Part shown: piece by piece, positions 26,304-36,050 of the stretch
Position numbering within the stretch: position 1 is the stretch's first letter
How the letters are laid out: the number at the start of each line of letters is the position of its first letter
NCBI RefSeq assembly: GCF_000153185.1
Contig: NZ_CH724152.1
Span: 477,116 to 541,115, forward strand
Direction: 5' to 3'
Length of the DNA: 64,000 nt
Source: Reinekea blandensis MED297
GTDB taxonomy: Bacteria; Pseudomonadota; Gammaproteobacteria; Pseudomonadales; Natronospirillaceae
Notes under the pieces: generated by a model
Told to the model about the DNA's origin: nothing
What the model saw: only the letters and a program-made list of their open reading frames with translations
Database searches by the model: none
Made by a program: the position numbers and the translations under genes

Positions 26304-28660
26304 TCGTTGATGTTAATGGCATCAATCTGCTCCGGTCGCAGGTAGGTTTGCGCATATTGCCGGTACAGTCCACTGGTCAGTAAAAACTCAAACGAATCGC
26401 GATCAATGTGCTGTTCTTCGACCATTGAAGACAGAATACTCAACGTCTGGCTCAGTGTTTTCCCCGTTTTATAGGGTCGGTCGCTTGCCGTCAGCGCTTC
26501 GAACACATCAGCCAGCGCCAGCATCCGTTCAGGGATCGACAGTTCCTCGCCCTGCAATTGCCGTGGGTAACCACGACCGTCCATACGTTCGTGGTGCGTA
26601 GACGCGTAGCGGGGCACATTAGAGAGTTCTTTCGGGAACGGCAGCGCTTCGAGCATGCGGATGGTACTGATGATGTGTTCGTTGATTTTAAAGCGTTCTT
26701 CGGCCGTCAGCGTGCCGTAACTGACCAGCAGATTGTGCAGCTCCCCACGGTTGTATAAGTCTTTGGGCACGTTCATACGAATGCCCAGACGCGTCATGTA
26801 GTCGGTGCTGTGTTCACGCGCTATGCGATGTTCTGGCGCATCCCGGAGCAGGTTTTCCCAAACCGGTAACGATTCGGGCGGTGGCGGGAAGCGTTTGGCT
26901 TCCTGATGCGACAGACCAAGGCGGTCGTCAAAGTGTCGCAGCCAGGGCGTTTGCGCCAGTTCCTGCAAGCGTTCCTGCTTGTCTTCACTCATAAACTCAC
27001 TGCCGATGTTGCACTCCGCGATGAACGCGAAATCGTCGGTGAGCTGCTGTTGCCGTTGCCGGCATTCCTCTTGCCATTGTGCACGTTGGTCTGGTGCTTT
27101 CAGGCACTGTTGCAGGTAATGAATCTCGGCATCCCGCCACAGCACTTCGAAGCGTGTGCGGATTTCATGGATGCGGTTGTGAATGGTTTCCAGCTTGGTG
27201 GCTTTATCGACGACAAATTCCGGCGTGGTGACTTTACCGCAGTCGTGTAACCAGGCGGCCACCCGCAGTTCCCGCCAGGCCTCTTCGCCACGCACGTGAA
27301 AATCTTTAAACGGCCCGGTGGTGGCCTGGTCGGCCGACTTAACCAGTTGCAACGCCAGTTCCGGAACGCGGGCACAATGCCCACCGGTGTAAGGCGACTT
27401 CTGGTCAATGGCCTCGGCAATGAGTTGGATAAACGCATCCAGCAGATCACGTTGATCCTGCTCTTGCTTCTTGATGGTCTTCACCATGTTGATGATCGAC
27501 TCGGACAGTTCATCGATTTCAACAATGTGCGAACGAACGCGGCGGACTTTTACATCGCGACGTTCGCGGATTTTTTCGTTCTCGGCCGCAAGCTCCCGTA
27601 CCGGCCGAACAATCGGGTAAGCAAACGCCCAGGACAATGGCAGAATTAACGCCAGCAGCCCGGCGCTGACGGCCAGTGACACGCGTAAACGCGCCAGGAA
27701 GGGTTCATTCACGACGCGTTCGGACACCAAAACGCCAAAGTATCGTGGCTGGCGGGTATTCACCGCCGGAATATCACTGACATAAGCAAAGTAAGGGGTG
27801 CCGTCGATGGTGACAGGCTGCAGACCGGTTTCGCCATTACCGGCCATGTCGACCAGCAGCGCCGCCGGGTCCGGGCCGGCCTCCGGACCTTCATCGGTCC
27901 GCGCCAGCATCTGGCCGTCCTGTTGGAAAATAAACGCATCCCCGTTTCGGCCTTCAAAGCCCTGATCCCGAAGGAAGTCCGACAGCGACGGCAGCAGAAG
28001 GTCGATCCCCAGTACAGAGCGTTGATCCGGCAGTAGGGTCGACAGAGTGACGCCGGGTGTCTGGAGTTGCGCAAAACGGTAAGGCTCAGTCTGATACAGC
28101 CGGTTTTCATTGTTCGCGAGGCGATACCAGGTGCGCAGCCGAGGATCATAGTTGGTCGGTTCGTCGCGTGTGTTAAGTCGATTGAACTCGGCATCGTAAT
28201 GCTGAAACTCACGGACGCGCCCGGTGGGCGTATCGAAGACGCGGACTTCCACCCATTGATCGGTCGGCCCGGCGTTTAACGCTTTACGCGCCATAGCACT
28301 GGCATCGAGATTAATCAGCTCGTAAAAATCCCCCGTGCTGCGGCCAATATAGAGCCCGTAAAACACCGGGTTTTGTGCCAGCGCCTTGGCAAACAACCGA
28401 CGAGTAGTAATCGATTCGTTCGGGTCAGTCAACGCGGGGAACTCAGCAATTAACCTGACGGTATCGGCACTTTGCCGTTCCAGATTAGTCAGTCTCGACA
28501 CCACCGCCGATGCGGTTTGGGTGTAATTGTTGCGGGCCGCCGACAACGCCTGCCGTTGCCCGAAATAGTATTGAAGGCCAATGGCCATGCCGGACAAGAC
28601 CAGTGTGACCAGCATGAAAACCGAGACGGTGGTGAGCTGAATGCTGAAACGATAGTTCAT
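26261..28660 (-). CDS. Cache-sensor HD-GYP-type phosphohydrolase
   Basis: About 799 residues. TM helix 1 (about 5-28), a periplasmic dCache-like domain, TM helix 2 (about 325-345) and a HAMP-like linker lead to an HD-GYP domain. The HD pair is in WLHDCGK (about 472) and the GYP signature in HHERMDGRGYP (about 690), followed by ALADVFEALTASDRPYK. About 215 residues separate these motifs, against about 65 in the neighbouring HD-GYP gene at 59 kb, so a ~150-residue insertion splits the domain. The likely role is c-di-GMP hydrolysis in response to a periplasmic ligand. The start may instead be a TTG at 28672; neither site has a good ribosome-binding site. Confidence 0.9.
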   Translation of the reverse strand: MNYRFSIQLTTVSVFMLVTLVLSGMAIGLQYYFGQRQALSAARNNYTQTASAVVSRLTNLERQSADTVRLIAEFPALTDPNESITTRRLFAKALAQNPVFYGLYIGRSTGDFYELINLDASAMARKALNAGPTDQWVEVRVFDTPTGRVREFQHYDAEFNRLNTRDEPTNYDPRLRTWYRLANNENRLYQTEPYRFAQLQTPGVTLSTLLPDQRSVLGIDLLLPSLSDFLRDQGFEGRNGDAFIFQQDGQMLARTDEGPEAGPDPAALLVDMAGNGETGLQPVTIDGTPYFAYVSDIPAVNTRQPRYFGVLVSERVVNEPFLARLRVSLAVSAGLLALILPLSWAFAYPIVRPVRELAAENEKIRERRDVKVRRVRSHIVEIDELSESIINMVKTIKKQEQDQRDLLDAFIQLIAEAIDQKSPYTGGHCARVPELALQLVKSADQATTGPFKDFHVRGEEAWRELRVAAWLHDCGKVTTPEFVVDKATKLETIHNRIHEIRTRFEVLWRDAEIHYLQQCLKAPDQRAQWQEECRQRQQQLTDDFAFIAECNIGSEFMSEDKQERLQELAQTPWLRHFDDRLGLSHQEAKRFPPPPESLPVWENLLRDAPEHRIAREHSTDYMTRLGIRMNVPKDLYNRGELHNLLVSYGTLTAEERFKINEHIISTIRMLEALPFPKELSNVPRYASTHHERMDGRGYPRQLQGEELSIPERMLALADVFEALTASDRPYKTGKTLSQTLSILSSMVEEQHIDRDSFEFLLTSGLYRQYAQTYLRPEQIDAININDYLGSRSPEPTGAE

Positions 28661-28801
28661 CGTTCGTGCCAATTTGAACAGGTTTCTAAGAGTTTAGTGT
28701 TAAATTTTGAAATTTCCCGGAAGATCGGCAATTTTCTTTCGCTGTTAGGGTTGGCGGGGGCAGGCAGAACGTGAGGGGATGACGCTCGTTTTTATGAACG
28801 C

Positions 28802-29308
28802 CTACCCTTGGAGGCGCGCGACAAACTCGCTTATGCCAGGTATCGAGTGGTTCGGGTCAATATCCTCGTCGACGGGGCAATAAAGCATTCCCTGATAGGG
28901 CATGCCTAAATAGCTAAAGGTCAGCTTGAATACATCTTCAAAGCAGGGTGGCGGGTAATCCCAACTGCCCGTTGCAATCACCGAGCAGTTCAAGCCTTTT
29001 AGCTTCCTACCTAAGTTTTTCTCGATGGTTAGCAGATCGGAAAAACGGTCAAAAAAGATTTTAAGCTGCGCGCTCATCGCGTACCAATACACCGGAGTTA
29101 CAAACACAACATGGTCAAACGAAACCAGTTTCTCAATGAGGGGTAAAAAATCGTCGTGGCGGTTTCGGTGCTCATAGTCGTACACGGAAATGTCGTAATC
29201 ATCTAAGTTAAAGACAGAGACACGGCTCAGCTTTTCAGCGACCAGGTTTGCAAGCTGAACGGTATTGCCCTGTGGCCGGGACGAAGCGATTAGGAATGCT
29301 GTGCTCAA
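28802..29308 (-). CDS. Flavodoxin-fold NAD(P)H-dependent oxidoreductase
   Basis: 168 residues. The N-terminal FMN-phosphate loop ASSRPQGNT and the segment VTPVYWYAMSAQLKIFFDRFSDLL are typical of the NADPH-dependent FMN reductase / NAD(P)H dehydrogenase family. The substrate is unknown. It is the first of a run of small, scattered genes leading into the cassette array, and its composition is somewhat more AT-rich than the operons to its left. No attC site borders it. Confidence 0.85.
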   Translation of the reverse strand: MSTAFLIASSRPQGNTVQLANLVAEKLSRVSVFNLDDYDISVYDYEHRNRHDDFLPLIEKLVSFDHVVFVTPVYWYAMSAQLKIFFDRFSDLLTIEKNLGRKLKGLNCSVIATGSWDYPPPCFEDVFKLTFSYLGMPYQGMLYCPVDEDIDPNHSIPGISEFVARLQG

Positions 29309-29391
29309 GGGGTGTCCTTCTAGGGTGCGAATGAAACATAAAAGTATACGAGTTGAGCTACGTGTGGAATGCCCGGTTTAGGCGAACCGAT

Positions 29392-29817
29392 TCAGTACTG
29401 AGACGCGTACTCAATGATCGCCTTGGCAGGTAGTACGTTATTTGAGCGCAGGATTAACCTCCCGGATGATGAATACAAATGCACTGAAAAATCCCCATCA
29501 GACAGTAACGATTGTGCACCATCAGCATCGATATAATATCCATCTTTATCCGGCTGCCCATGCGCCAACGCCGAGACGTAGATAAGCTGATGGCTTTCAG
29601 CATCGACAGTCTCCAAAACGGCCCATTGGTCGATGTACGACTGGATGCTTTCATCGGAGGCGACAACGATGACCGTCGTCAGGTTCATCTCAGTTCGATA
29701 GTCCTGCGATAGTTCGGACGAGAGTGTGCTCAGGTTATATCGGTTATCGCCTTGTGCGATCTCCACTGCGTGCACAAGCGGCAAGCAAAAAAGGAGTATT
29801 AGAGTGAGTTGTCGCAT
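29392..29817 (-). CDS. Secreted protein, DUF4174-like
   Basis: 141 residues. A clear signal peptide (MRQLTLILLFCLPLVHA) precedes a mature domain. The C-terminal segment (DFSVHLYSSSGRLILRSNNVLPAKAIIEYA) resembles the end of DUF4174 proteins, which have a thioredoxin-like arrangement without the CxxC. The match is from memory and moderate. The protein should be periplasmic. Confidence 0.65.
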   Translation of the reverse strand: MRQLTLILLFCLPLVHAVEIAQGDNRYNLSTLSSELSQDYRTEMNLTTVIVVASDESIQSYIDQWAVLETVDAESHQLIYVSALAHGQPDKDGYYIDADGAQSLLSDGDFSVHLYSSSGRLILRSNNVLPAKAIIEYASQY

Positions 29818-29930
29818 CGTCCCTCGTATGTTCCTGATGATGTTTTTGGGTTAGGCCGGAGGCTCAGTTCAATAGCAGCTGACTACAGCGTTATTAAAAG
29901 CATACTCGCAGCCCTAGCATGGCTTTAGCT

Positions 29931-30173
29931 TCAGGGTCTCCCCCAAGGGGAGTCGTTCGAAAACGTTGAAATATACAGCTTTTCGACTTTGTCTCTTGCC
30001 CATTGAGTCTTTCGTAAGAATTTCAACGAAGACTTAATGGACGGGTCACTCTTAAAGCAGTTAATGTCGATTCTCTGAGCGAGTCCGCTCCATCCGTAGT
30101 GTGCCACCAAACTCGTTACAATCTTTTCGAGTGTGAGGCCGTGTAATGGGTTGTTGGGTTGCTGATCGCTCAT
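29931..30173 (-). CDS. VF530-family protein (DUF2132)
   Basis: 80 residues. [22 protein letters not shown] and the [23 protein letters not shown] segment are characteristic of VF530, a small all-helical family described as DNA-binding. VF530 genes are widespread in marine gammaproteobacteria. Its start-proximal side carries an attC-like site, so it is probably the last cassette of the array. Its 3' side has no recognisable attC. Confidence 0.88.
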
Positions 30174-30218
30174 TATTAGAGATTCACCTTTATAAGTACC
30201 GAGAATTTTTGTTCATAA

Positions 30219-30306
30219 GGTTAACGGATTGGGCAGGGCAACGGTATTGAAATGGCATAATGTTCGTGGTGAGTACGGTGCTTTTAACCATAGTCGCTTG
30301 TTACGT
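30219..30306 (-). repeat. attC-like site (GNAT / VF530 junction)
   Basis: On the minus strand it runs from ACGTAACAAGCG to CCGTTAACC. The GNAT stop codon lies inside the first core. The inner arms pair only partially, so it is a degenerate or weak attC. Confidence 0.55.
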
Positions 30307-30693
30307 AGTTACCACAGTGCCATTTTCGACCTCTTTTTTCACTTTCCAGCCCTGTTTTGTATACAACTGTGGAATGTCTGTAAGTGCATAAAGCATTGGC
30401 GAAACGCTCACCGCGAGGTCAACGAGCTTAGAAGCGATACCCTTACCCCGAAACTCAGGTAGAACATAAAGGGCATTTAACCAAATAACCTCATCATTGC
30501 CATCTGGCTCCAAAAATGAGGTAAACGAGGCACCGCCAATAACCCTACCTTCATGCAGAACCGCAATTGGCCTGGGAATAGGCAACCCAGACCGACACTT
30601 TTCGAATACGCTTAAGTCGTTCCATTCTGAGTTTAATAACCGCAATAACTGTTCAGCTTCGCCTGACTCAAACTCTATTTGAACGATTTTCAT
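30301..30693 (-). CDS. GNAT-family N-acetyltransferase (cassette)
   Basis: 130 residues. The acetyl-CoA-binding motif is LYVLPEFRGKGIASKLVDLA (RGKGIA fits the R/Q-x-x-G-x-G/A pattern), followed by the usual C-terminal LYTKQGWK. The start is placed at the ATG at 30693; an upstream extension of 23 codons runs through the neighbouring attC and is unlikely to be translated. It acetylates an unknown small molecule or protein. Acetyltransferases are frequent integron cargo. Confidence 0.85.
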   Translation of the reverse strand: MKIVQIEFESGEAEQLLRLLNSEWNDLSVFEKCRSGLPIPRPIAVLHEGRVIGGASFTSFLEPDGNDEVIWLNALYVLPEFRGKGIASKLVDLAVSVSPMLYALTDIPQLYTKQGWKVKKEVENGTVVTT

Positions 30694-30707
30694 AAGTAGT
30701 AAGTGCC

Positions 30708-30771
30708 GATTAGAGCATTCGTTTGTAGCAATGGCCGGTCTTTCCGCTGCCATTGCCTGCAATTGTTATGG
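30708..30771 (-). repeat. attC-like site (DUF1801 / GNAT junction)
   Basis: A perfect 8-bp inverted repeat, GCAATGGC (30728-30735) and GCCATTGC (30749-30756), is flanked by the core GTTATG (30765-30770). The distal core is degenerate (GATTAGAGC at 30708). Confidence 0.65.
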
Positions 30772-30777
30772 GGTAGG

Positions 30778-31140
30778 TTAACCACGGACTTGAGCGTTCC
30801 TAAACTTAACCATTTCAATGATTAATTGTTTTGGCAAGGGTTTGTTTAATGGGAACTGGATAGAGCCTTTCGCATACTTGAATTCACTCAGCCGTTCTTG
30901 AAAGGCCTCAATGGTATCCGGATGGGGATAAAACCCAATATGCTTTGCATAGCCTGCAATCATGATTTGTTGTTCGCGCTTGCCACCTTCGATTAACGCA
31001 AATGCGGGTATCTTGTAATTCATATGCTCAGAAACGTGAGGGGCTGCTTCCCAAATATATTCTCGGATTTCTGATAATGCTTCAGATGTCTTTTGTGGTT
31101 GATTCGCGATATAGGCATCGACTTCACTTGATCTTTCCAT
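30778..31140 (-). CDS. DUF1801 / YdhG-like protein (cassette)
   Basis: 120 residues. SSEVDAYIANQPQKTSEALSEIREYI followed by HMNYKIPAFALI, GGKREQQIMIAGYAKHIGFYPHP and GSIQFPLNKPLPKQLI are typical of the small DUF1801 (YdhG, 'iron chaperone'-like) proteins. The ATG at 31140 gives the family length. A longer open frame to 31251 is translated attC sequence. The function is unproven. Confidence 0.88.
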   Translation of the reverse strand: MERSSEVDAYIANQPQKTSEALSEIREYIWEAAPHVSEHMNYKIPAFALIEGGKREQQIMIAGYAKHIGFYPHPDTIEAFQERLSEFKYAKGSIQFPLNKPLPKQLIIEMVKFRNAQVRG

Positions 31141-31172
31141 TGTATTTGACTCTATTACTTTCTTGTAACGTT

Positions 31173-31263
31173 CTTGCGCTGGCGCGAACGATAGCCAGTC
31201 GAAGGCCCGCCTGCGATAGCGGGTTAATAAAAGCGGGCATGTTTCAGCCACGTCTTGTTAAGA
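31173..31263 (-). repeat. attC-like site (31.3-kb gene / DUF1801 junction)
   Basis: The minus strand begins TCTTAACAAGACG and ends GAACGTTACAA. Inner arms GCCCGC (31206-31211) and GCGGGC (31233-31238) are perfect, and a second pair CCCGC/GCGGG nests within. The stop codon of the upstream cassette gene lies in the first core. Confidence 0.7.
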
Positions 31264-31650
31264 TTCGGGGTGCTCGGGCAAATCTACGACAACGGTTTTT
31301 TCCCCACAAACACTGCAACTTTTATGAATACTAAACTTAAACTCAAACAAATATGAGAAGTACTTCGAAAACTTAGCTCCGCCCCAAAATATGAGATAAA
31401 GAAACAGCCCTACACTAAGTACTGCATCAAGAGCTTCTCCAATAAAATCGAACCAGTTGTTAGCGCCTATTTCAGCGGCATGAAATGCGGGTACAAGTGA
31501 AACCCGAGTATTTTCAATCACGAAGCTTACGATCAAGAAAAAAATCAAAAAGATAATCCCAAATACTATGGAACCACCAACAGCATCTGCTGGGTTAATC
31601 CAAAACCTAATCTTTCGTTTAAGCTTATTATTGCAGTTATTACATTTCAT
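31258..31650 (-). CDS. Two-TM protein with split zinc-ribbon cysteines (cassette)
   Basis: 130 residues. It starts MKCNNCNNKLKRK and has a CxxC near each end (CNNC at 3-6, CSVC near 111-114). Between them are two hydrophobic segments (about 27-47 and 75-93). The cysteine pairs could form one zinc ribbon on the cytoplasmic face of a two-helix hairpin. The start lies right beside an attC core with no visible ribosome-binding site. I do not recognise the family. Confidence 0.75.
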   Translation of the reverse strand: MKCNNCNNKLKRKIRFWINPADAVGGSIVFGIIFLIFFLIVSFVIENTRVSLVPAFHAAEIGANNWFDFIGEALDAVLSVGLFLYLIFWGGAKFSKYFSYLFEFKFSIHKSCSVCGEKTVVVDLPEHPES

Positions 31651-31654
31651 AGAA

Positions 31655-31745
31655 TCTTAACATTTTTGTTTTGCGGCGAGGTTACGAGTCCAAAGCCCGC
31701 CGAGTTACCGGTTTTGCGCGCTGACCCAACAATTTCTTGTTAAGT
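31655..31745 (-). repeat. attC-like site (32.0-kb gene / 31.6-kb gene junction)
   Basis: The cores are ACTTAAC (minus strand, matching the RYYYAAC consensus) and GTTAAGA. The outer arms share TAACA...TTGTT pairing, while the inner arms are weaker. The stop codon of the upstream cassette gene is inside the first core. Confidence 0.65.
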
Positions 31746-32075
31746 ACCAAATCGCCGAATTATAGATTTGCAGTTTTCTAAAGTGCATTCTTTAGCCCAA
31801 GTGGTTGCCCGCTCAATATCAGGCTGATGTTTTTCTAGCGCAGATTTAGACCAGTGAATCCTCACTGGACCCACAGGTAAATGATCTACTTCTGACATAA
31901 CACCAGTGAACGCAGCGAAGTCCTCGTCTCTGTCTTCTAAGCCAACTGCAAAACGAAGCTCACTTAGAAGTAACGCACCTTCTAGGTAATCCAGAGTACC
32001 ATCCAGCATCTTCGAAGCAACTTCGACAGACTCCAACCTTTTCTTCTGTATGTATTCTTCCCGGGACATCGTCAT
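31740..32075 (-). CDS. Small protein, possibly DUF2489 (cassette)
   Basis: 111 residues, soluble. Recognisable stretches are SREEYIQKKRLESVEVASKMLDG, EDRDEDFAAFTGVMSEVDHLPVGP and VRIHWSKSALEKHQPDIERA. The pattern resembles DUF2489-type proteins as I remember them, which have no known function. The ATG at 32075 lies six bases from the attC core. A start two codons further in is equally possible. Confidence 0.75.
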   Translation of the reverse strand: MTMSREEYIQKKRLESVEVASKMLDGTLDYLEGALLLSELRFAVGLEDRDEDFAAFTGVMSEVDHLPVGPVRIHWSKSALEKHQPDIERATTWAKECTLENCKSIIRRFGT

Positions 32076-32081
32076 AAAAGT

Positions 32082-32153
32082 ACTTAACACCCGCAGCACA
32101 GGACAACTTGAAGCGCAGCGGAAAGTTGGTCCGAGTGACTGCGTTTGTTATGA
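32082..32153 (-). repeat. attC site (32.8-kb gene / 32.0-kb gene junction)
   Basis: A 72-bp site with cores GTTAAGT (minus strand, perfect GTTRRRY) and TCATAAC. The inner arms GGACAACTT (32101-32109) and AAGTTGGTCC (32123-32132) pair with one extra base on one strand. The outer GCAG/CTGC arms pair too. Unpaired single bases of this kind direct strand choice in attC recombination. Confidence 0.85.
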
Positions 32154-32157
32154 ATAT

Positions 32158-32820
32158 TTAGTCTTCACTTTCGTCTAGCATTGTATGAAGAACCGCTTCT
32201 AGATCCTCCGGAGTAACAACTTCAGCATCTTCTTCTAGTACTGATAGCACAGCATCATGAATACTAACTGCTGTTGGTGACATACCCTCAACCATATCCT
32301 TTAACCTGACGAGTTCTAAGTTGTGCTCGTTTAACTTTTCTTCAAAGAATTCGATAACCTCAGGATTAACTGAACTACTATGCTCAAGGTGGTGTGTAAA
32401 GTTAGCGATTGATGATGCGATATCATCGATTCTGTCGACAGAAGAAGAATGCTGTTCCTTAATGGAACTCACCTCTTTGCTAAGTTCGGCTACATTTTCT
32501 AAAAGTTTTTTTATGAGGGAGCTCTGTTTTTCTAGTTGATTTTCTAACGAAGAAACGGCGCTCCCTAATTCTTTTACTTCAGCCCTGTATTTTTTGCTTT
32601 GTTCTCGCTCTTCTTGCGCTTCTTCACGCCTCTCTTTAAGTTCAGCTCGGATATCCTTTATTTCTGATTCAAACCTGCTATTCGTTTGCCCTAAAGCTTC
32701 ATTCGATTTTTTTAGGCCATCAATACTGCCTTGAAATACCTTATAAATTCCGACAGACGCAATGACAAACAACACTACGCCGGGTCCATACGCGGTAAGC
32801 ACATCTATTATTGGTTGCAT
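32158..32820 (-). CDS. Membrane-anchored coiled-coil protein (cassette)
   Basis: 220 residues. A single N-terminal TM segment (about 12-30, GPGVVLFVIASVGIYKVF) is followed by a long charged heptad-rich helix (about 35-150). The C-terminal tail is acidic. The overall shape resembles small membrane-tethered coiled-coil proteins such as those in phage or stress systems, but no specific family is recognised. An SD-like GGAGAT (the complement of 32825-32830) lies about 4 bases upstream of the ATG. Confidence 0.75.
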   Translation of the reverse strand: MQPIIDVLTAYGPGVVLFVIASVGIYKVFQGSIDGLKKSNEALGQTNSRFESEIKDIRAELKERREEAQEEREQSKKYRAEVKELGSAVSSLENQLEKQSSLIKKLLENVAELSKEVSSIKEQHSSSVDRIDDIASSIANFTHHLEHSSSVNPEVIEFFEEKLNEHNLELVRLKDMVEGMSPTAVSIHDAVLSVLEEDAEVVTPEDLEAVLHTMLDESED

Positions 32821-32845
32821 ATCGATCTCCTTTGCTTGAATTTAT

Positions 32846-32929
32846 TCATAACGCCGCTAGCACGCGCGGCTTTGTAGTGAAGGCGAAGCCGCAACGGAAA
32901 AGCCGTCGCCGTGCCTGGCCTTGTTAAAC
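32846..32929 (-). repeat. attC site (33.2-kb gene / 32.8-kb gene junction)
   Basis: The cores are GTTTAAC and GTTATGA (minus strand). The inner arms CACGCGCGGCTTT (32860-32872) and AAAGCCGTCGCCGTG (32899-32913) pair throughout except for two extra bases on one strand. This is one of the clearest attC sites in the array. Confidence 0.88.
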
Positions 32930-32935
32930 GTTGCC

Positions 32936-33268
32936 CTAGCCCTTGGCATTACTGGCATACTCAATAGCCAGAAGCATAAGAATCTTCAGCGCGAAATCGC
33001 CTACCTGTCTCTGGTAAGCCTGAAGCGAAGTAGACAAACTGGCTTTAAGCTCAGAAACATCTCTTTCACTTATGCTGGCAGGAATCGGCGCATCGAGTCC
33101 CTGCGCCACAACTGTTTTAGACTCTTTGATGAGCGGCATTATAGCTGAGACTGTTTGCGCTACTGTTTCTTCTGAAAAACCCCTTTCTGTAAGGGACTCC
33201 CGCAGCGCGTTTTCTATTTCAAGGTCATTCCGTATTTCCCGACTAGGGAATTCAACAATCTTGCTCAT
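32936..33268 (-). CDS. Hypothetical protein (cassette)
   Basis: 110 residues, predominantly helical, starting MSKIVEFPSREIRNDLEIE. The C-terminal part (DFALKILMLLAIEYASNAKG) is a hydrophobic helix. I see no catalytic or binding motif. The ATG at 33268 lies ten bases from the attC core, as is usual for cassettes; the frame is open for nine more codons into the attC. Confidence 0.7.
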   Translation of the reverse strand: MSKIVEFPSREIRNDLEIENALRESLTERGFSEETVAQTVSAIMPLIKESKTVVAQGLDAPIPASISERDVSELKASLSTSLQAYQRQVGDFALKILMLLAIEYASNAKG

Positions 33269-33277
33269 ATAGATACC

Positions 33278-33358
33278 GTTTAACGCCGCCAACACAGGCG
33301 AGTGTCAGCGAGTCCAGCCTGCGCTTTTTGCGGGCGATTGTGCTTGGCTTTGTTAGGT
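33278..33358 (-). repeat. attC site (33.7-kb gene / 33.2-kb gene junction)
   Basis: Both cores fit the consensus on the minus strand: ACCTAAC (RYYYAAC) and GTTAAAC (GTTRRRY). The arms GCCAA-CACA and TGTG-C-TTGGC pair with one extra base on one strand. The stop codon of the upstream cassette gene lies in the first core. Confidence 0.9.
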
Positions 33359-33775
33359 GATTTCAACGTGCAGCCGCCACTCTGGTGAATTACTTGAGTA
33401 GTTTTCCTTTTCTGAGTATTCACTAATATAGCTATAGCCTTCTCCTCGACCTGCAAGATCATTTAGAAACTCTTGCAGGCTAGATAGAACACAGTTGCTT
33501 CCATAGATTCTTAAGATATCTCTATTATTCCAATCATCCATTGAGAAGTAGTCATTCGTTTTATTTTGGAGAGAGGTAAAAAGCTCTTCTTCTGTCTCAT
33601 CTCGAATGATCTCAATTGATATATCAGACTCTGATAGCATCAAAGTCGGGTTTTTAGAGCTAATAGCTTTGCCGACAAAATCTGCAAATTGATTATATTC
33701 CTCTGGCTTTGCGTACAAAACCAGATCATCAATTAGTCCATTTGAGCGGAACATTTGTCGAGCCTCGATTCTCAC
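33353..33775 (-). CDS. Hypothetical acidic protein, possibly immunity-like (cassette)
   Basis: 140 residues, acidic. The C-terminal half (ILRIYGSNCVLSSLQEFLNDLAGRGEGYSY, then PEWRLHVEIT) has the strand-helix-strand pattern seen in small immunity proteins such as Imm32; this is a weak, remembered resemblance. I keep the GTG start at 33775 because AGGTGA, within the adjacent core site, lies seven bases upstream. An ATG seven codons in is the alternative. Confidence 0.7.
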   Translation of the reverse strand: MRIEARQMFRSNGLIDDLVLYAKPEEYNQFADFVGKAISSKNPTLMLSESDISIEIIRDETEEELFTSLQNKTNDYFSMDDWNNRDILRIYGSNCVLSSLQEFLNDLAGRGEGYSYISEYSEKENYSSNSPEWRLHVEIT

Positions 33776-33784
33776 TATTTATTC

Positions 33785-33893
33785 ACCTAACAGTTTATTA
33801 CTCGGCTACCGCCGATATATCCCTGCGCCGCGTATGCAAGGAATGGATTTGTACCCTACGGCGCTCTAAGTCTCTAATGTAGAGGCGTTGCGA
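33785..33893 (-). repeat. Degenerate attC (or attI-like) end of the array
   Basis: A perfect core GTTAGGT (minus strand of 33785-33791) sits just upstream of the first cassette gene. GCGCCG (33825-33830) can pair with CGGCGC (33859-33864). The far core is poor (GTTGCGA at 33887). It could be a decayed attC or the remains of the attI platform. Confidence 0.5.
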
Positions 33894-33941
33894 ATTGCTT
33901 GTCAATTTCACAAGCATGATATTTAAGCGCGAGCCGAAGTA

Positions 33942-34106
33942 TTACGGACTTTGCTGCGCCTGTAACGCCCAGAAATCGGGGGGAGTAATAAGTTGTTCCT
34001 GATAGCTGTTCGCCGGTTTCCAGTTAAATAAGCTCGCGCACAAGTATTCGGGATATTTCCGGATAAACCAACGCAAAACGACGGCAACCACTAATAAAAC
34101 GCGCAC
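33942..34106 (-). CDS. Possible small ORF or gene remnant beside the array
   Basis: A 54-codon ORF (GTG at 34106) starts with a hydrophobic segment (VLLVVAVVLRWFI) and then RKYPEYLCASLFNWK and SYQEQLITPPDFWALQ. It occupies part of the ~600-bp stretch between the first cassette and the SQR gene, where I see no other coding sequence and no integrase fragment. It may be a truncated membrane protein; coding is uncertain. Confidence 0.3.
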   Translation of the reverse strand: MRVLLVVAVVLRWFIRKYPEYLCASLFNWKPANSYQEQLITPPDFWALQAQQSP

Positions 34107-34320
34107 TTCACCGCTGGCTGTACCCGCTTGGTTACAACAAACCTCGTTTTGAAAAACATGACCTTGTGTTGTTCTTGCAAGACAGGCATCTGTCTTCAGG
34201 AGGCTTGGATATTGTTAGATCTGCATGCTGTTCCTGGTTGGTGGGACTGTCCCCTCTTTAAGTTCTCGAGTTGCCAGGCCTCTTAGACCAACGTCTAGTT
34301 TGCGTTTTTTAAAATATATA

Positions 34321-34334
34321 TTAGATTTATCTAA
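34321..34334. promoter_or_regulatory. BigR/ArsR-type operator-like inverted repeat
   Basis: TTAGAT-TT-ATCTAA is a perfect 6-bp inverted repeat with a 2-bp spacer, in an AT-rich promoter region 46 bp upstream of the sulfide:quinone oxidoreductase fusion. AT-rich repeats of this type are bound by BigR/SqrR ArsR-family persulfide sensors that control such genes. A 10-bp palindrome ATGAATTCAT (34345-34354) lies just downstream. No ArsR gene is in the window. Confidence 0.5.
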
Positions 34335-34379
34335 ATAAGAATTAATGAATTCATACACAGATACATAACCGAGGTGACT

Positions 34380-36050
34380 ATGGATATCCGCCAGATAAAT
34401 GAGCTGTTCAGTGTCTCTGGCCAGCTGCAGGCAGACGATGTTGCCGTGCTGGCCAAAAACGGCATTCAAACGCTGATTATTAACCGGCCCGATGGTGAAG
34501 GGGCCGATCAGGTGTCTCATGACGAAATCCGGGTGCTTGCCGAACAACACGGCATGTCGGTGCATTACTTACCGGTGATTTCCGGTGCGGTCAAAGACGA
34601 AGAGGCGACGCAGTTTAAAGAGCTGCTGAAGTCGTCCGCGCAACCCATCCATGCCTATTGCCGGACCGGGATGCGTTCGGTCACGTTGTGGGCGCTGGCT
34701 CAGTCGCAAGACGGCGTGGGTTTTGAGTCCATTCAAAATGCGGTGGCGCGGTCCGGGTATGACATTTCCGGGTTGGCCGGTCGGCTGACCGGTCTGGCCC
34801 GCAGCGATGCTCACACTCCGAGTTACGATGTGGTCATCGTCGGGGCCGGTGCCGCGGGCATTGCAACCGCCAGCAGTATCCAAAAGCGCGACAGCCGGTT
34901 GAGCATTGCGCTGATCGATCCGGCTGAGTATCACTATTACCAGCCCGGCTGGACGTTGGTCGGGGCAGGCGTGTTTAAACCCGAGAAAACCCGACGATCC
35001 ATGGGCTCGTTGATTCCCAAAGGCGTCGATTGGATTAAATCGGCCGTTGCTCAGTTTGAACCCGAAAAAGACCAGGTATTGTTGGAAGGCTGTCGTCCGG
35101 TGAAATACCGTCGGCTGGTGGTCGCGGCCGGTTTGAAGTTGAACTGGGACGGCATCGAAGGGCTGTCGGAAACCCTGGGTAAAAACGGTGTCACCTCGAA
35201 CTATCGGTTCGACCTGGCGCCCTATACCTGGCAGATGGTTCGCCAGCTTCAGGATGGACGGGCGGTGTTTACCCAACCGCCCATGCCAATCAAATGCGCG
35301 GGCGCACCGCAGAAAGTGATGTACCTGTCGGCCGACCATTGGCGTAAGCAAGGGCGCTTGGGTGCCATGGACATTCAGTTTTTTAATACCGGACCGGGTC
35401 TGTTTGGTGTGGCCGACTATGTCCCGGCGTTGATGGATTACGTGAAAACCTATGGCATCTCGCTGAACTTTCAGCATCAGTTAGTGAAGGTGGACGGCGA
35501 CGCGAAAAAAGCCTGGTTCAAACAGGTGGGTGATCAGGCACGGGATGAACTGGTAGAGGTAGGTTTCGACATGCTGCACGTCACGCCGCCACAACAGGCC
35601 CCCGATTTTATCCGCAGCAGTCCGCTGGCTGACGACGCTGGTTGGGTCGATGTGGATCAGTACTCGTTGCAGCATAAACGCTATGACAACATCTATGGCG
35701 TGGGCGATGTGATGAACGCGCCGAACGCCAAAACCGCCGCGGCCGCGCGCATGCAGGCGCCGGTGGTGGCGCACAATCTGGTGGAATCGCTGCATGAAGG
35801 CCGCCAGGTCAGTCAGTACAACGGTTACGGCAGCTGCCCATTAACCGTTGAGCGCGGCAAGATCGTTCTCGCCGAGTTTGGTTACGGCGGTAAGTTGTTG
35901 CCAAGCTTCCCGAAATGGATGGTCAATGGGCTCAAGCCAACCCGAGCCGCCTGGATTCTGAAAGAACGGCTGCTGCCGGAAATCTACTGGTCGCTGATGC
36001 TCAAAGGGCATGAATGGATGATTGAGCCGTCTCTGGAAGACGTCCGTTAA
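34380..36050 (+). CDS. Phosphatase-like (BLH) / sulfide:quinone oxidoreductase fusion
   Basis: 556 residues. The N-terminal ~110 residues form a dual-specificity-phosphatase-like (DUF442/BLH) domain with the P-loop AYCRTGMRS. From about 120 on it is an FAD/NAD(P) oxidoreductase of the sulfide:quinone reductase group (DVVIVGAGAAGIATASSI, AEYHYYQPGWTLVGAG, MPIKCAGAPQKVMYL, YGVGDVMNAPNAKTAAAA). The expected role is oxidation of sulfide to persulfide at the membrane with quinone as acceptor. The ATG at 34380 has GAGG five bases upstream. It is followed by a terminator, then the cyd genes. Confidence 0.9.
   Translation: MDIRQINELFSVSGQLQADDVAVLAKNGIQTLIINRPDGEGADQVSHDEIRVLAEQHGMSVHYLPVISGAVKDEEATQFKELLKSSAQPIHAYCRTGMRSVTLWALAQSQDGVGFESIQNAVARSGYDISGLAGRLTGLARSDAHTPSYDVVIVGAGAAGIATASSIQKRDSRLSIALIDPAEYHYYQPGWTLVGAGVFKPEKTRRSMGSLIPKGVDWIKSAVAQFEPEKDQVLLEGCRPVKYRRLVVAAGLKLNWDGIEGLSETLGKNGVTSNYRFDLAPYTWQMVRQLQDGRAVFTQPPMPIKCAGAPQKVMYLSADHWRKQGRLGAMDIQFFNTGPGLFGVADYVPALMDYVKTYGISLNFQHQLVKVDGDAKKAWFKQVGDQARDELVEVGFDMLHVTPPQQAPDFIRSSPLADDAGWVDVDQYSLQHKRYDNIYGVGDVMNAPNAKTAAAARMQAPVVAHNLVESLHEGRQVSQYNGYGSCPLTVERGKIVLAEFGYGGKLLPSFPKWMVNGLKPTRAAWILKERLLPEIYWSLMLKGHEWMIEPSLEDVR

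Follow-up and report, generated by a model that had tools for sequence, protein, structure and literature searches.

How does an array of gene cassettes with no integrase beside it come by its contents, and does anything still move them? Integrons are usually described as one integrase, one attI site and one array, and a locus in a 64-kb stretch of the Reinekea blandensis MED297 genome departs from that description (the whole stretch, G000:C4:477116-541115, is called the window; G000 is its genome, and positions without a contig are those of the window). A first-pass annotation, made from the sequence alone, had recognised an integrase-less cassette array there, with short genes in a single orientation and a drop in G+C content against the flanks. 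Both features were borne out: seven cassette genes share the minus strand in the list of open reading frames (30301-33775), and 30280-33810 has a G+C content of 0.431, whereas 1047 overlapping segments of equal size from the rest of the 64 kb average 0.547 and never fall below 0.512. We propose that this array is probably an integron minus its integrase gene, intI, which retains its attI site and likely its cassette promoter (Pc) and is fed in trans by an integrase (IntI) encoded elsewhere.

The main feature of the locus, at the array's head, had been overlooked: where the first-pass annotation placed one more attC site, we found an attI-like leader of 158 bp with a likely promoter (33786-33943, -). 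Its layout is AATTGACA, 18 bases, a -10-like hexamer, about 65 bases and the motif GGTAGC-N7-TAAACTG^TTA directly at the first cassette, from which we predict a Pc (33876-33905, -; TTGACA, 18-nt spacer, TACATT) and an attI core (33788-33810, -) with its crossover before the first cassette. Full-length intI genes with the same layout beside them occur on contig C2 of G000, in G004, in G006 and twice in G005 (one of the two with an internal stop), where G001 to G006 are relatives within the genus (G005 being Reinekea sp. G2M2-21). The attI core motif is identical at a second integrase-less array, at C4:128k in the same genome, and differs by 1 to 4 substitutions at five intI-linked leaders; across an alignment of 15 leaders, letters 1 to 5 of TTGACA are invariant and letter 6 nearly so. 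When 22 genomes of the family were searched at the DNA level for the window leader, the C4:128k copy and two weak G005 matches were all that came up besides the leader itself, so that a profile was required (R3, a sequence-only leader model of 15 rows: five linked to full-length intI, one to a broken intI and nine orphans including the window's). The window leader scores 84.1 bits under R3 as a row of the model itself, and its independent support is therefore the alignment to intI-linked leaders. Reinekea is placed in the family Saccharospirillaceae.

No intI gene was detected adjoining this leader. Profile searches of G000 with PF00589 and TIGR02249 gave no match inside the window, in agreement with the earlier remark that no integrase is visible; no intI was detected within 1.5 kb of the leader at either the window or the C4:128k array, a tblastn search of the 430 bases preceding the right flank gene gave no sign of intI, and neither flank showed a trace of it above chance. 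The array is thus without the intI gene of a complete integron, and it retains a predicted attI and a likely cassette promoter. The earlier option of a stranded integron fragment is better put as an integron minus intI, since attI and a likely Pc are still there. A different origin is that an integrase inserted the cassettes at a genomic attG site and that no integron ever existed at the window locus; that cassettes outside integrons can arise by such insertion has been published (Loot et al. 2024, as cited in a passage of PMC12444791), and here we hold it very improbable. An array of that origin would be headed by chromosomal DNA rather than attI, whereas the leader at 33786-33943, likely Pc and attI together, heads this one and aligns with true integron leaders, and an ordinary cassette includes neither attI nor Pc.

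Movement of a cassette is indicated by the C4:128k array, which a DNA search of the genome itself located 380 kb from the window array. The second cassettes of the two arrays (33284-32849 in the window) are 100% identical, with 0 differences in 436 bp. This match runs from the R' box GTTAAAC to the next R' box and nothing like it continues on either side, while the leaders of the two arrays are far less similar (76% over 156 bp). The arrays therefore parted long ago and cassette 2 moved recently, the alignment indicating that it did so as one unit cut at the attC crossover points. Such unit movement cut at attC was found for one of the seven cassettes. Its simplest reading is a recent recombination in trans by IntI. 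We think it quite unlikely that the array is instead a dead relic, in which intI was lost long ago, the cassettes are frozen and the shared one reflects by coincidence an older duplication or gene conversion. The broken crossover box of one attC site, the half-lost last site and the six of seven cassettes without a copy elsewhere in G000 would fit a relic; 0 of 436 differences in the cassette against a 24% difference between the leaders would not, nor would an identity ending at both R' boxes, a pattern not expected from gene conversion. A comparison of 19 array stretches brought out no further shared cassette segment of 150 bp or more, the remaining shared segments being leaders, and a pattern scan of a named genome collection, which detects close relatives only, found no relative of cassette 2.

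Candidate suppliers of the integrase are present in the genome. G000 has two full-length intI genes, with scores of 383 and 372 bits, both above the TIGR02249 cut-off; they lie on contigs other than the window's C4, at C10:31330-32271 and C2:271713-272648, and incomplete copies are found at C4:94.7k and C7:654k. Almost the entire length of both IntI proteins can be aligned with VchIntI (2a3v), and what we take to be the R, K, HxxR, H and Y active-site motifs are in place in both, as judged by eye. The first-pass suggestion that the array is mobilised by an integrase elsewhere is supported by these two genes and by the one cassette without a difference. In the mechanism that we propose, an integron at the window locus would have lost intI while retaining attI, likely Pc and seven cassettes; IntI from elsewhere in G000, most likely from the C2:271713 gene, the leader of which groups with the window's in one broad clade, would move cassettes into and out of the array in trans; and Pc would drive the first cassettes. 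The C10 intI (L007/L014, G000:C10:29296-33339) lies near a contig end, adjacent to a second PF00589 match and, by eye, a topoisomerase-like gene; this contig, which ends within the second cassette, may be a mobile element or plasmid.

The sites on which such an integrase would act were searched for with two covariance models. R1 was trained on 35 attC sites, none of them from the window, in arrays adjoining intact or interrupted intI genes of G000 and its relatives; R2 is wider, with 116 sites, and includes an identical copy of the attC site at 32846-32929, which is therefore not independent under R2. In R1 the stems are 93.3% paired, against 21 to 37% in slid versions, and both-side changes occupy 114 cells against 32 in shuffles, pair counts that are partly built in because the training sites were chosen by a scan requiring arm pairing. 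Run over the 64 kb with E up to 10, R1 returned six attC sites, every one within the array and on the strand of its genes (-); R2 recovered the same six. Three of the six have E below 2e-7 under the independent R1, at exactly the positions of the three strong sites of the first-pass annotation: the attC of cassette 1 at 33278-33358 (48.0 bits, E 2.9e-8), that of cassette 2 at 32846-32929 (44.4 bits, E 1.8e-7; the same type occurs on plasmids of other genera) and that of cassette 3 at 32082-32153 (45.2 bits, E 1.2e-7; fold z -3.66). The attC sites of cassettes 4 and 5 are of a long type, at 31655-31745 (R1 E 0.069, R2 E 3e-4; DNA 82% similar at C4:389.7k) and 31163-31263 (R1 E 0.092, R2 E 2.8e-5; 80-83% similar DNA at C2:267.5k and C2:304k). 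That of cassette 6, at 30716-30771, is weak under both models (R1 15.0 bits, E 0.48; R2 E 0.77; hairpin z -3.93) because its R' box has no GTT; with GTT gone from this crossover box, the DUF1801 and GNAT genes of cassettes 6 and 7 probably travel together or stay put. Beyond the GNAT gene only half an attC site is left (TAACAAG, 30282-30306, -; E 0.23-0.26 in 4601 bases with filters off), the point at which the array breaks off. The expected seven or eight sites are thus reduced to six, these last three full sites being additions to the strong ones, and the outermost attC claimed at 30219 to half a site. With six attC sites and no intI nearby, the array conforms to the published definition of a cluster of attC sites lacking integrases (CALIN), as the first-pass annotation had it (passages of PMC9024848).

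Folding of the bottom strand was better than in dinucleotide shuffles for two of the six sites (z -3.7 and -3.9), and an Rfam search over 28000-36000 gave no match. A home-made scan for folds and cores produced an excess of matches, and the covariance models were used in its place. Matches to the attC sites occur on 16 plasmid records, the best place shown being 32849-32926 in 15 and the attC of cassette 3 in one; those to 32849-32926 reach 97.4% over 78 bp on a Halomonas plasmid and 80 to 94% on the others. Among the plasmid matches listed, none falls on a cassette gene of the window, and blastn of the DUF1801 cassette (362 bases) returned no plasmid record.

The leader is far from alone. We ran R3 on 24 genomes (E up to 0.01) and obtained matches in all seven genus genomes and in one of a sister genus, G008 (8 of 24; none in the other 16), the 15 training leaders matching by construction. 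Leader matches number 17, 9, 9, 6, 6, 18 and 8 in G000 to G006 and 14 in G008, where they are weak (21 to 33 bits); TIGR02249 matches over the cut-off in the same eight genomes number 2, 0, 1, 0, 1, 3, 1 and 0, with stops in two of the three in G005. Of these 87 leader matches 77 were examined, ten weak or partial ones being left out (one in G000, three in G002, one in G004, three in G006, two in G008); one of the 77 has only 426 upstream bases in which to look for intI, and at least one (L174) is close to a contig end. The G000 set comprises 16 loci, the window array among them. By tblastn (E 1e-4, up to 1.5 kb upstream), intI is full-length at five leaders (one with an internal stop), a relic at eight and not detected at 64. 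An attC match follows within 2.6 kb at 65 of the 77, namely 47 of 57 leaders of relatives, which are not in R3 training, 14 of 16 in G000 and all four further intI-linked leaders, whose attC sites are partly R1 training rows. Overlap with R1 training, among attC sites counted at leaders with an intact or broken intI, concerns L016, L019, L073, L076 and L077; at the other leaders of G000 the result holds with R1 alone. Within 1.4 kb, attC lies downstream of 43 and upstream of one of the relatives' 57 leaders, and none of 158 attC matches is on the opposite strand. TTGACA or its last-letter variant is present in 73 of the 77 leaders, and the exact CTGTTA at attI in 48 of the 64 orphan leaders. 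The large intI-linked array of L073 (G006) has 37 R1 attC matches over 20 kb; these are of several types and include many nearly identical sites of 75 bases.

A tree of the 77 leaders clusters by genome (18 genome changes, against at least 44 in 200 shuffles) and pairs the window leader with that of C4:128k at a support of 100/96; the leaders are short and several branches long, so that its deep forks are unsure. The clearest multiplication is seen in G008, where five copies in five places have more than 1.4 kb in common at 86 to 94%, including a gene that we take to be nucleotidyltransferase-HEPN-like. All five share one identical intI deletion junction, at about codon 11 by eye, where two other copies retain intI sequence; the five therefore descend from one ancestor already without intI, and integrase-less platforms of promoter and attI multiplied after intI was lost. 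A common intI breakpoint was looked for among the relics and not found, their truncation points differing. Deletion of intI was repeated, and a deleted form was also copied: both happened. In L154, L158, L159, L160 and L163 (G008) the nucleotidyltransferase-HEPN-like gene stands in the place of intI and may be an addiction module that keeps or spreads platforms; a RadC-like gene (by eye) lies upstream of several multiplied leaders of G005 (L143, L149, L152). In L157 of G008, the DNA at about 70-1250, between the nucleotidyltransferase-like gene and the intI relic and before the leader, contains an attC match at 552-612, which suggests that cassettes also entered on the far side. An orphan leader in G000 (L093 14767-15200, G000:C2:304.8k) is 75% alike over 415 bp to that of the C2 integron; by eye the likeness reaches the first intI codons and then gives way to another gene's end, a snapshot of intI loss.

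How platforms arrive at new places is a related matter. The leader, promoter and attI together, may itself be the dispersing unit, copied without intI; larger repeats may have carried it, or IntI may have moved it as an attI-type cassette. This idea is compatible with our proposal and would explain the arrival of the platforms, and we consider it somewhat unlikely. Leader families have multiplied within genomes, the G008 copies share their one junction, and in G000 the C4:116k and C7:408k loci are 90.5% alike over 580 bp that end exactly at the crossover, with different cassettes behind; IntI itself would be one candidate for the copying. In units where miniature inverted-repeat transposable elements flank and mobilise an integron, terminal inverted repeats surround an intI-less array; the G008 and G005 copies compared, with their far ends left out, show neither a shared left boundary nor any target duplication or terminal repeat, and the differing truncation points fit many separate deletions. 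In favour of the idea, IntI1 excises and inserts cassettes ending in attI (passages of PMC12901181). Returning to an integron that lost intI and is fed in trans, some platforms have multiplied within genomes after that loss, as in the five sister-genus copies, and each platform with Pc and attI would receive and express cassettes without an integrase of its own. We therefore put forward, as a tentative possibility, a distributed integron in which one or two integrases serve many scattered promoter-attI platforms, the window array among them, that themselves spread without an integrase, the unit of selection being the landing-and-expression site.

Several observations weigh against feeding in trans and temper our preference for it. 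Only one of the seven window cassettes has a copy elsewhere in G000, so that exchange in trans may be rare, and the two identical cassettes could both stem from a third source. No trace of intI adjoins the window leader, and the loss of intI there is for this reason deduced from relatives. The wider clade of 14 leaders that unites the window with the C2 integron has a support of 96/79, slightly below the program's mark. The promoter combines a conserved TTGACA with a poor -10, four of the six attC sites fold no better than shuffles, and at the two long ones the lowest-energy fold differs from the attC hairpin. Across the leaders, 16 of the 64 orphans have no exact CTGTTA and 12 of the 77 have no attC match within 2.6 kb, some of them decayed. 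Finally, attI, Pc and intI are taken to be functional on the strength of their sequences.

In passages of PMC9024848, CALINs are defined as two or more attC sites with no nearby intI, average almost six attC sites each, and are read, as in passages of PMC12444791, as degraded integrons that can be mobilised in trans. The window array shares the attC sites and the lack of intI but additionally retains attI and a likely Pc. According to that study (PMC9024848), little has been described of attI sites beyond class 1 and its tool does not detect them, so that the attI-retaining state would be invisible to it. Xanthomonas CALINs away from the ilvD integron are likewise integrase-less arrays at other chromosomal places, seven distinct loci across the species compared (passages of PMC12444791), whereas here a single genome has as many as 18 promoter-attI leader matches, and these group by genome. 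The integron remnant of Treponema phagedenis also retains attC and has lost intI, but occupies one syntenic locus and is static according to its authors, feeding in trans being absent from the passages of PMC3607928. In the delta-attI-type gene cassettes of class 1 and 2 integrons attI likewise occurs apart from intI, there as a cassette's 3' site inside mobile integrons (passages of PMC12901181) and here within a whole promoter leader that heads chromosomal arrays. The literature searched (titles and the starts of abstracts, most subscription papers lying outside) held no report of promoter-attI platforms multiplied without intI, which is not proof of novelty; the sole Reinekea integron paper found names the genus, in the parts available, only in supplementary figure legends. 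Within the genus, attI and promoter are detached from the integrase and multiplied, with 6 to 18 leader matches against 0 to 3 intI matches per genome. If feeding in trans is confirmed, it will be necessary to reconsider whether CALINs are degraded integrons, more cassettes would be expressed per cell than assumed, and the activity of integrase-less arrays would be directly testable in marine bacteria.

The surroundings of the array offer little for comparison. The right flank gene, before the leader, is presumably rhodanese- and sulfide-quinone-reductase-like; the DNA preceding it is not alike among the relatives compared. The locus comparison that the first-pass annotation had proposed alongside the covariance check, which gave significant attC sites, found no match to a window cassette protein in stretches of about 20 kb at this gene in G002, G003 and G005; the outcome that the annotation had named as pointing to fixed genes did not arise. 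An empty site could not be reconstructed, the left flank gene (HD-GYP-like by eye) being found outside G000 only in G001 among seven genomes (49%, over part of its length). A gene of the VF530 DNA-binding family (29931-30173, Pfam E 7.3e-36) directly adjoins the broken end and was not counted as a cassette because no attC match follows it.

The cassette genes, all on the minus strand, are as follows. The first (33353-33775, 140 aa) gave no family, and cassette 2 (32849-33284, 436 bp) holds a gene at 32936-33268 (110 aa) without a family above the cut-off. The gene of cassette 3 (32158-32820, 220 aa) encodes a coiled coil with weak matches only, possibly membrane-anchored through an N-terminal hydrophobic stretch seen by eye; its coiled-coil matches to defence proteins were set aside as low-complexity ones. 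The fifth (31258-31650, 130 aa) is membrane-like by eye, with no family above the cut-off. That of cassette 4 (31740-32075) is weakly DUF2489-like (Pfam 23.2 bits, below the cut-off of 27, on the longer frame 31740-32099), and those of cassettes 6 (30778-31140) and 7 (30301-30693) match DUF1801 (Pfam E 2e-11 on the longer frame 30778-31251) and, as a GNAT acetyltransferase, Acetyltransf_1 (Pfam E 9.6e-10 on the longer frame 30301-30762).

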